From: an uncultured Bacteroidota bacterium
Lineage (GTDB): Bacteria; Bacteroidota; Bacteroidia; Flavobacteriales; Flavobacteriaceae
Assembly: GCA_902509805.1 (NCBI GenBank)
Contig: CABWZL010000001.1
Location: 1 to 64,000, forward strand
DNA: 64,000 nt
Direction: 5' to 3'
Of this stretch, positions 14,538 to 19,542 are shown piece by piece; position 1 is the stretch's first letter; the number at the start of each line of letters is the position of its first letter. Position numbers and translations under genes: made by a program. The notes under the pieces are model-generated. The model worked only from the letters and a program-made list of their open reading frames with translations. It had not been told where the DNA came from and made no database searches.

Positions 14538-15346
14538 GATTTTTGATATTTGTACTCTCCTAAAATTTTAAACTCTTGAGCCATTAATTCAATTATTTTT
14601 ATTGCTTTTTTATAATTTTCAATTGATTTAAAAGTAATGTCAACAAAAAACGCATATTTACCTGGAGTTTGAATAACAGGCAAAGACTGAATCTTTGTTA
14701 AATTTAGATTACAATCACTCATCATATTCAACACTGTAGCTAAGCTTCCTCTTTTATGGTCAAGAATAAATTTAAGAGCAGCTTTATTATAATCAAGTGC
14801 GTCTTTTTTATTCTTTTCAAGAATTACAAATCGAGTTTTGTTATTTTTTATAGTCTGGATAGATGTTTCTAGGATTTGTAATGTGTATATTTTAGATGCT
14901 TGTAAACTAGCAATTGCTCCTACACCACTAATTTTATTATCTCTAATATTTTTAGCATAAAGCGCTGTATCTTCACTTTCTATTAATTTAATATGAGGAT
15001 AATTACTAAAAAACTTAGAACATTGCAATAGAGCCATTGGATGAGAGTGAACTTCTTTAATTTCAGTAATCTTTTGATTTGGAAGACACATTAAATTATG
15101 ATCTATACTTAAACTGTATTCCCCAATTATTGACAGATTATATTCATCAATAAGAGCATAATTTGGAAGTATAGAACCTGCAATTGAATTTTCAATAGCC
15201 ATTATTCCGTATTCAGAATCTTTATCAACTACAGATTTTACAAGACTCTCAAAAGTTGAGCATTCATTTAATTCAAACGAATCAAAATAATGATTTGCTA
15301 CCATATGGTGAAATGATCCTTTAATTCCTTGAATTGATACTTTCAT
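14534..15346 (-). CDS. pheA: Prephenate dehydratase with ACT domain
   Basis: Converts prephenate to phenylpyruvate, the phenylalanine branch. The catalytic domain reads VSIQGIKGSFHHMVA, GIMAIENSIAGS and NKTRFVILEK, with the T-R-F triad visible. A C-terminal ACT domain follows (HKRGSLATVLNMMSDCNLNLTKIQSLPV). The allosteric ESRP motif of enterobacterial PheA reads QSLP here and GALV reads GSLA, so feedback by Phe may differ. The ATG at 15346 gives the normal N-terminus (270 aa). An in-frame ATG at 15385 would run through the terminator hairpin of the leader and adds residues unlike the family. First structural gene of the attenuated Phe/Tyr operon. Confidence 0.94.
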   Translation of the reverse strand: MKVSIQGIKGSFHHMVANHYFDSFELNECSTFESLVKSVVDKDSEYGIMAIENSIAGSILPNYALIDEYNLSIIGEYSLSIDHNLMCLPNQKITEIKEVHSHPMALLQCSKFFSNYPHIKLIESEDTALYAKNIRDNKISGVGAIASLQASKIYTLQILETSIQTIKNNKTRFVILEKNKKDALDYNKAALKFILDHKRGSLATVLNMMSDCNLNLTKIQSLPVIQTPGKYAFFVDITFKSIENYKKAIKIIELMAQEFKILGEYKYQKS

Positions 15347-15348
15347 AT

Positions 15349-15376
15349 AAAAAAAAAGTCCTGATTTGACAGGACT
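15349..15376 (-). terminator. Attenuator terminator before pheA
   Basis: On the minus strand AGTCCTG - TCAAAT - CAGGACT forms a 7-bp stem with a 6-base loop, followed at once by eight U residues. The U-tract ends two bases before the pheA ATG (15346). A Rho-independent terminator placed between a promoter and the first structural gene is the signature of transcription attenuation. Confidence 0.85.
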
Positions 15377-15434
15377 AGTATTCATAATTTCTTTTAATAG
15401 AATAGTTACCCTGTCTTTTGATTAGAAAAGAAAT
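15368..15434 (-). promoter_or_regulatory. Mutually exclusive antiterminator and anti-antiterminator pairings of the pheA leader
   Basis: GACAGGGT (15415-15408), which covers the last codons and stop of the leader ORF, can pair with GTCCTGTC (15375-15368) over 8 bp (two of them wobble). This would remove most of the terminator's 5' arm. A second, AU-rich pairing joins the Phe codons, ATTTCTTTTCTAAT (15434-15421), with ATTAAAAGAAAT (15398-15387): 12 bp with a 2-base bulge. It would trap the antiterminator strand in its loop and favour termination when no ribosome is present. A ribosome stalled at the Phe/Tyr codons blocks the second pairing and frees the first; one that reaches the stop covers GACAGGG. 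Pairings are read by eye; energies were not computed. Confidence 0.75.
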
Positions 15435-15468
15435 AATAGCTATAATAAAAATTAAAATTGTTTGTCAT
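15406..15468 (-). CDS. Phe/Tyr-rich leader peptide of the pheA operon
   Basis: A 20-codon ORF, ATG at 15468 and TAA at 15408-15406, with core NFNFYYSYYFF: four Phe and four Tyr codons (codons 5, 7, 8, 9, 11, 12, 13, 14). It begins about 7 bases after a consensus -7 box, so its mRNA is probably leaderless or nearly so. It ends 30 bases before the attenuator terminator hairpin (15376). By analogy with the pheA and trp leader peptides of enterobacteria it would sense charged tRNA-Phe and tRNA-Tyr by ribosome stalling. The regulated genes make exactly these two amino acids. Existence of the peptide is inferred from sequence only. Confidence 0.85.
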   Translation of the reverse strand: MTNNFNFYYSYYFFSNQKTG

Positions 15469-15475
15469 TATTCAA

Positions 15476-15506
15476 CAAAAGTATAATAGGTATAGATAAA
15501 AACAAA
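15476..15506 (-). promoter_or_regulatory. Promoter of the pheA leader and operon
   Basis: TTTG (15506-15503), a 19-base spacer and TACTTTTG (15483-15476) match the Bacteroidota consensus TTTG-N19/20-TAnnTTTG. Transcription would start near 15470, next to the leader-peptide ATG at 15468. It lies just downstream of osmC, giving the Phe/Tyr operon its own promoter. Confidence 0.8.
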
Positions 15507-19434: not shown

Positions 19435-19481
19435 AAAATAGATTTGTGAGAAATAAAAATGAAAGATTGCGAGTAAAAGAA

Positions 19482-19534
19482 TTACTGCTTTAGCAATTTT
19501 TTTAAGAGGTTGCAATCAGTCAAATCCTTCCTCT
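19482..19534 (-). promoter_or_regulatory. SAM-II riboswitch upstream of metK
   Basis: The minus strand shows the SAM-II (SAM_alpha) pattern: stem P1 AGAGG/CCUCU enclosing GGAUUUGACUGAUUGCAA, then an A-rich linker, then UUGCUAAAGCAGU, whose CAGU pairs with ACUG in the P1 loop to make the pseudoknot. The invariant-looking segments AUUU-A/G-AC, AUUGCAA and GCUAAA coincide with the SAM-II crystal-structure aptamer as I remember it. The aptamer starts about 9 bases after the -7 box and ends 47 bases before the metK ATG. An alternative hairpin GCAGUAA-UUCUU-UUACU(C)GC (19488-19469) uses the same CAGU strand and could be the unbound state; the off mechanism is not clear from sequence. Confidence 0.88.
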
Positions 19535-19542
19535 GTTTAGAA

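Follow-up and report, generated by a model that had tools for sequence, protein, structure and literature searches.

A predicted aromatic leader-peptide attenuator upstream of the pheA operon in Flavobacteriaceae and other Bacteroidota

Leader-peptide attenuation is best known from Proteobacteria, and one leader can read several related amino acids, as do the ilv and thr leaders of enterobacteria. Work on attenuation in bacteria by Lopatovskaya and co-workers from 2010 may contain related predictions. Among described systems, E. coli pheL-pheA (Rfam RF01859, Phe_leader) has a Phe-rich leader before the prephenate dehydratase gene and a terminator adjoining that gene. E. coli trpL works by a three-strand logic, in which strand 2, in or near the end of the ORF, pairs with strand 3 unless it is covered. 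A 2010 survey, in its accessible part, adds Firmicutes to Proteobacteria and Actinobacteria, until then the only groups in which its authors knew of demonstrated leader peptides (PMC2965389). In Bacteroides thetaiotaomicron, short ORFs in long 5' UTRs were reported to resemble attenuation leaders, and the available sections of that paper do not name pheA in this context (PMC7366714). A transcriptome study of F. psychrophilum, as far as its accessible text goes, describes 5' elements before pheA and hisG that also occur in other Flavobacteriaceae genera and lack Rfam hits, together with strong hints of attenuation by leader peptides ahead of amino-acid operons (PMC9723704).

Here we analysed the stretch between osmC and pheA in 64 kb of flavobacterial DNA (the window, meaning the whole stretch analysed). 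Judging from its sequence and from comparison with relatives, this locus very probably controls the pheA-tyrA-DAHPS/CM operon by ribosome-mediated transcription attenuation. Three features of such attenuators were found: a leader ORF rich in codons for the products, a predicted terminator before the first gene, and an exclusive antiterminator, the last from sequence and a model in which the strand concerned was left uncovered at the stop codon in 3 of 98 loci. The locus resembles pheL-pheA in the placing of leader, terminator and prephenate dehydratase gene and trpL in its strand logic, and it differs from pheL in that it would also read Tyr, and Trp in many relatives. The amino acids read by the ilv and thr leaders are a different set; here the set is aromatic. 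The F. psychrophilum element shares the gene and the class of bacteria, whereas codon content, antiterminator and wider distribution come from the present analysis rather than from the part of PMC9723704 available. Our literature search, which covered openly accessible main texts, found no description of the codons, covariation or phylum-wide range of a Bacteroidota aromatic leader. The original prediction called such a leader notable for a member of the Bacteroidota; given the element and the attenuation clues in the accessible text of PMC9723704 it is less new than supposed, but it does have unusual features and a wide range. The kind of switch is already known; of interest are its breadth, the Trp codons in relatives, a predicted 5' leader that is very short, and a protector that seems to be missing.

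The operon lies on the minus strand and comprises pheA (prephenate dehydratase, PF00800, 14534..15346) as its first gene, tyrA (prephenate dehydrogenase, PF02153 and PF20463, 13689..14537), a DAHP synthase/chorismate mutase fusion (DAHPS/CM, PF00793 and PF01817, 12600..13682) and, probably, a class I/II aminotransferase (PF00155, 11410..12591). These Pfam domains bear out the predicted identity of the three controlled genes. Downstream of pheA, tyrA and DAHPS/CM are encoded on the same strand in 74 of the 75 loci that extend far enough, and the sensed amino acids would thus match the enzymes. Other genes identified by their domains are rsmG (PF02527) and osmC (PF02566). Placing the pheA start at 15346 agrees with the lengths of its homologues, 265-277 aa for most of the 120 listed. 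An in-frame ATG at 15385 (15385-15347, minus strand), upstream of the terminator, would extend pheA across the hairpin and is absent in locus L001; a listed homologue of 283 aa suggests that some gene callers pick an upstream start. In five genomes (G281, G289, G347, G139 and G396) the open frame that contains pheA is 691-734 codons long, which suggests a fusion of prephenate dehydratase with another enzyme.

The attenuator is flanked by the end of osmC (15516) and the start of pheA (15346), and all its elements, on the minus strand, were re-read at their own coordinates. A predicted promoter consists of a -33 element TTTG (15503..15506) and a -7 element TACTTTTG (15476..15483; form TAnnTTTG) in the arrangement TTTG-N19-TACTTTTG, following the consensus given in the accessible text of PMC9723704. 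The same 19-nt spacing occurs in loci L001-L006. The predicted transcription start is 15471, taken as 5 nt past the -7 box. The leader ORF (15406..15468) has 20 codons and encodes MTNNFNFYYSYYFFSNQKTG*, with four Phe and four Tyr control codons within ten codons (15427..15456). The 5' strand of the putative antiterminator, segment 2 (GACAGGGT, 15408..15415), overlaps the last codons and the first stop base, and the 3' strand, segment 3 (GTCCTGTC, 15368..15375), is shared with the 5' arm of the predicted intrinsic terminator. This terminator, AGTCCTG-TCAAAT-CAGGACT (15349..15376), is recognised by its sequence pattern as a 7-bp stem with a T-run (15357-15349), in which eight T past the stem end two bases before the pheA ATG. 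Promoter, 20-codon ORF, strand over the last codons and stop, and terminator were thus all read back as the original prediction had described them. The fold energy of the region (z -1.84; 10 of 200 shuffles fold equally well) is, by itself, weak evidence for structure.

These elements suggest the following course of events. RNA polymerase would start just before the leader ORF, with a ribosome following. A shortage of charged tRNA-Phe or tRNA-Tyr would stall this ribosome in the Phe/Tyr run with its leading edge just before GACAGGGU. In this stalled state GACAGGGU would pair with the emerging GUCCUGUC, no terminator would form and pheA would be transcribed. When both charged tRNAs are plentiful, a ribosome at the stop codon would cover GACAGGGU, allowing the terminator to form and transcription to end before pheA.

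The promoter box is also found in relatives. In 74 of 98 loci a TAnnTT[TA]G box lies no more than 75 nt before the leader start codon; shuffled sequences gave 10.0. In the available text of PMC9723704 the box occupies positions -12 to -5, and from that placement the implied 5' leader is 1-19 nt in 69 of the 74 box-bearing loci. The window's leader ATG lies about 3 nt from the predicted RNA 5' end. In F. johnsoniae, 87% of transcripts with a probable promoter have leaders longer than 10 nt, according to the accessible part of PMC6847099, so a 3-nt leader would be unusual. In none of the 98 loci do the 25 nt preceding the leader ATG contain a Shine-Dalgarno-like motif, another point in which the locus differs from E. 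coli pheL.

To map the distribution, GTDB genomes were scanned with a pheA alignment, and the best 80 of 587 confirmed loci were taken. By title these are all Bacteroidota, mostly Flavobacteriaceae, and the closest named pheA relatives belong to the marine 'Cryomorphaceae' MED-G11 clade of Flavobacteriales. An aromatic leader ORF lies upstream of pheA in all 80 nearest loci (79 by script, L034 by eye). Where the anatomy is complete (78 loci), the leader starts 117-249 nt from the aligned pheA start. Locus L034 carries a MRTAVYTYQTWNYFFFSKRNETSYV leader and an intact terminator some 400 nt from pheA, behind inserted palindromic repeats. In this Gelidibacter genome about four copies of the repeat (TTCGAAGAACGAAATAAAATGAACTAG...) lie between attenuator terminator and pheA (L034:3590-3990). 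Locus L045 has the ORF but contains runs of N, and no terminator was scored.

A phylum-wide sample held 395 Bacteroidota genomes, of which 340 had a pheA match and 89 were listed at at least 40% identity. All 89 were inspected (22 + 59 + 7 + G001, which is L001), and 81 have an aromatic leader ORF. The ORF was not found in the other eight (L152, L153, L158, L202, L208, L209, L215 and L243). In L239 and L241 the ORF is present, and a terminator was looked for and not found. The leader-bearing genomes include a Mucilaginibacter-like one (labelled Inquilinus sp. KBS0705, with its other nearest proteins from Mucilaginibacter) and Hymenobacter jejuensis, and the trait is therefore not restricted to Flavobacteriia. 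Among the divergent pheA loci (88 of 110 fetched, among the matches listed, plus L244), none was judged by eye to have a leader. A 'YDNRFIFFK'-like reading in divergent loci with less than 42% identity (e.g. L136, L146 and L147) was examined by eye and rejected as a leader, having neither a dense Phe/Tyr cluster nor a visible terminator. Six divergent loci (L121, L131, L136, L146, L147 and L151) have a conserved stretch like tatgataatagatttattttctttaaataaaa before pheA and no evident terminator.

A terminator was recognised by sequence pattern in 98 of 100 given loci and in 52 of 60 phylum loci; the 98 were scored further, with L034 and L045 left out. Segment 2 matches its own segment 3 with a mean score of 16.9, against 13.4 when the pairs are permuted (sd.27, max 14.3; 0 of 2000 permutations), although the permutations ignore kinship and the arm type changes just 7 times per arm by parsimony on the pheA tree. 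The 52 phylum loci give 20.3 for own pairs against 14.0 permuted (sd.41, max 15.4; 0 of 2000). By type, the arms of 95 loci are Watson-Crick matched in 80 and G-U compatible in 7, with 8 unclassified and none incompatible. The match is poor (10.5-12) in L005, L028, L071, L047, L051 and L178, among others. A tree-based sign test had 2-3 independent pairs, too few for power (median p 1), and a per-locus rank test placed the own arm in the top 5% for 17 of 98 loci only, because many loci share a near-identical arm. With segment 3 being shared with the 5' arm of the terminator, terminator and antiterminator exclude each other, as had been proposed, and their arms covary across loci. The original prediction had looked to relatives for a conserved short Phe/Tyr ORF with covarying arms, and both are there, the ORF in the 80 nearest loci and in 81 of the 89 phylum genomes.

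Because the window's T-run stops only two bases short of the pheA ATG, it could also affect initiation, and the structure might then control pheA translation, by start-site sequestration or coupling, with no working terminator. We consider this very improbable. A stem followed by 5-10 T stands behind the leader in 98 loci despite a distance of 10-123 nt to the aligned pheA start, and in L034 the terminator has stayed intact even though pheA is so far away. Both observations argue against translational control.

The spacing between codons and strand is near-constant. In 75 of 98 loci segment 2 starts 9-12 nt past the last aromatic codon, with a mode of 11 nt, as in the window; the full range is -2 to 18 nt, and the negative values reflect cluster ends or helices that were called in the wrong place. 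The stop codon is less constant, ending 6-39 nt past the last aromatic codon in the 98 loci. Spacing is looser in the phylum set (2-16 nt; 6-12 nt in 46 of 52 loci). Segment 2 would thus usually start near the leading edge of a stalled ribosome, about 11 nt past the last aromatic codon. With an assumed footprint of 16 nt before to 10 nt after the A-site codon, a ribosome at the stop covers segment 2 fully in 67 of the 98 loci, partly in 28 and not at all in 3 (L011, L132 and L178). With the last aromatic codon in the A site, segment 2 is free in 70 of 98, covered by less than about a third in 23 and by more in 5.

A partition-function model of 148 loci, which assumes a 10-nt ribosome edge and leaves out the RNA behind the ribosome, gave antiterminator probabilities of.94-.96 before the last aromatic codon,.86 at that codon, then.49 and.09 over the following two and about 0 from there on, with.001 at the stop, a near-zero value that is partly built in by these two choices. 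For the window, with the terminator 3' arm included, the antiterminator is still favoured with the ribosome stalled at Phe14, at -12.2 kcal/mol against -10.4 kcal/mol for the terminator with the ribosome at the stop. The same model gives the same switch for E. coli pheL, with sequestration of segment 3 at 0.64-0.83 when stalled and 0.00 at the stop.

Aromatic codons in the leaders are specific to the reading frame: from start codon to cluster end the aromatic fraction is.572 in the ORF's own frame but.169 and.224 in the two alternative ones (98 loci). Codon counts agree, with 716 TTY against 36 TTR, 514 TAY, and 66 TGG against 7 TGY in 150 leaders. Phe and Tyr both occur in all 150. The designation as a Phe/Tyr leader holds for the window, whose own leader has no Trp, but relatives are more broadly aromatic, with Trp codons in 66 of the 150 leaders. 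Trp state changes 13 times on the pheA tree (98 rows), so Trp is easily gained and lost. We infer that Trp may be sensed by the leaders that carry it; this would make sense because DAHP synthase, encoded in the same operon, also feeds Trp.

The residue preferences bear on a reading in which the leader peptide itself arrests the ribosome, as a TnaC-type nascent chain responding to free amino acid rather than to uncharged tRNA. Such a peptide could account for positions that prefer one residue, Tyr at -3 and Phe at 0 being favoured in 109 of 150 leaders each. Aromatic residues occupy each of the final five positions of the cluster (-4 to 0) in 87-100% of the 150 loci, position 0 by construction, and at every cluster position Phe, Tyr and sometimes Trp interchange. 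Leader lengths vary widely, and what is conserved is the aromatic class and a rough spacing to segment 2. An arrest peptide is therefore very unlikely, slightly more so than translational control, and stalling on uncharged tRNA is the reading we retain.

The original prediction also included a strand pairing back to the Phe codons. This strand is present in the window, where the spacer AAAAGAAAT (15387..15395, minus strand) is complementary to the Phe codons ATTTCTTTT (15434-15426; shuffle P.026), but it is not kept in place in the six nearest relatives. Loci L001, L004 and L005 have spacer-to-codon pairings elsewhere (P.002,.016 and.016), and L002, L003 and L006 have no standout pairing (P.33,.98 and.08). 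Across 150 loci the spacer-to-codon score shows a small excess, 14.5 against 13.5 permuted (sd.18; 0 of 2000) and against 13.8 with shuffled spacers (sd.20), with P.019 in the 52 phylum loci alone. A third, 'protector' strand is thus not well supported, and the role of the spacer strand is unsupported. Better placed than AAAAGAAAT is a short hairpin within the ORF, TCTTTT/AAAAGA (15414..15431, minus strand), which was seen in the fold and is a possible pause hairpin. Its complementarity is modestly above chance in 98 loci (12.5 against 11.6 permuted; sd.17, max 12.2 of 2000), and it is weak, with a two-base overlap with strand 2.

In the model, segment 3 of an untranslated leader is sequestered at 0.55 in the window and 0.61 on average over 150 loci, against 0.03 in trpL, where the protector is strong, and 0.19 in pheL; no effective protector is therefore predicted here. 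The stalled values are alike, 0.73 for the window, 0.71 for trpL and 0.64-0.83 for pheL, in a model that is a rough guide only, since it handled the hisL control poorly (0.55 untranslated, 0.11-0.20 stalled). If these values are taken literally, a leader left untranslated would lead to readthrough at this locus but to termination in E. coli trp and phe.

Terminator/antiterminator architecture is common to T-box, riboswitch and TRAP-like systems, and a leader that senses a ligand or protein, with the ORF incidental, would share it with the present locus. The codons are conserved, and no Rfam family reaches its gathering score here. Neither T-box nor known riboswitch models match at gathering score at this site, permissive thresholds gave only ten sub-threshold matches (E 0.69-9.8), RF01859 scored 14.4 bits against a gathering threshold of 55, and nothing exceeded threshold in the loci of eight relatives. 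Such sensing is hence a remote prospect, more so than an arrest peptide. Elsewhere in the window a SAM-II riboswitch aptamer (19480-19539, minus strand) scored 80.8 bits with a cut-off of 44.

The weakest reading, that the hairpin merely terminates osmC, which ends just upstream, and that the Phe/Tyr ORF arose by chance in very A+T-rich DNA, is next to impossible: among the window's 693 ATG-initiated ORFs with 12-42 codons, both strands counted, the MTNNFNFYYSYYFFSNQKTG ORF has the top Phe/Tyr density (8 in 10 codons; runner-up 6), dinucleotide shuffling of the 169-nt intergenic stretch reached that density in 6 of 20000 trials, the codons are frame-specific, and the ORF is conserved, also where no osmC is found (osmC matched in 11 of 80 loci).

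For amino-acid genes other than pheA we made two side observations with a loose scan that lets some chance ORFs through. In part of the Bacteroidota sampled, short ORFs with His runs occur some 300 nt before the HisG domain (hisG loci L267-L296), e.g. MFLNQLHHHHFSHARAR in L273, and 11 of 30 loci pass. ORFs containing WWW lie about 200-300 nt upstream of the TrpE domain (trpE loci L297-L326), e.g. MNNTWWWKNLRQTS in L320, and 12 of 30 pass.

We tentatively propose, as a reading that falls somewhat short of an even chance, that one aromatic attenuator, reading Phe and Tyr and in many lineages Trp, goes far back and is shared by most Bacteroidota lineages other than those whose pheA is divergent. 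It would need neither a Shine-Dalgarno site nor a protector, and in the window's clade it would act on an RNA with almost no 5' leader; the operon would then be turned on, not off, whenever the leader is not translated. The loci suggest that much of the Bacteroidota, without Shine-Dalgarno initiation, relies on leader-peptide attenuation for aromatic amino acids. Such loci open transcription-translation coupling, codon sensing and the use of very short 5' leaders to study in Bacteroidota, and make regulation of the operon predictable from sequence in the lineages examined.
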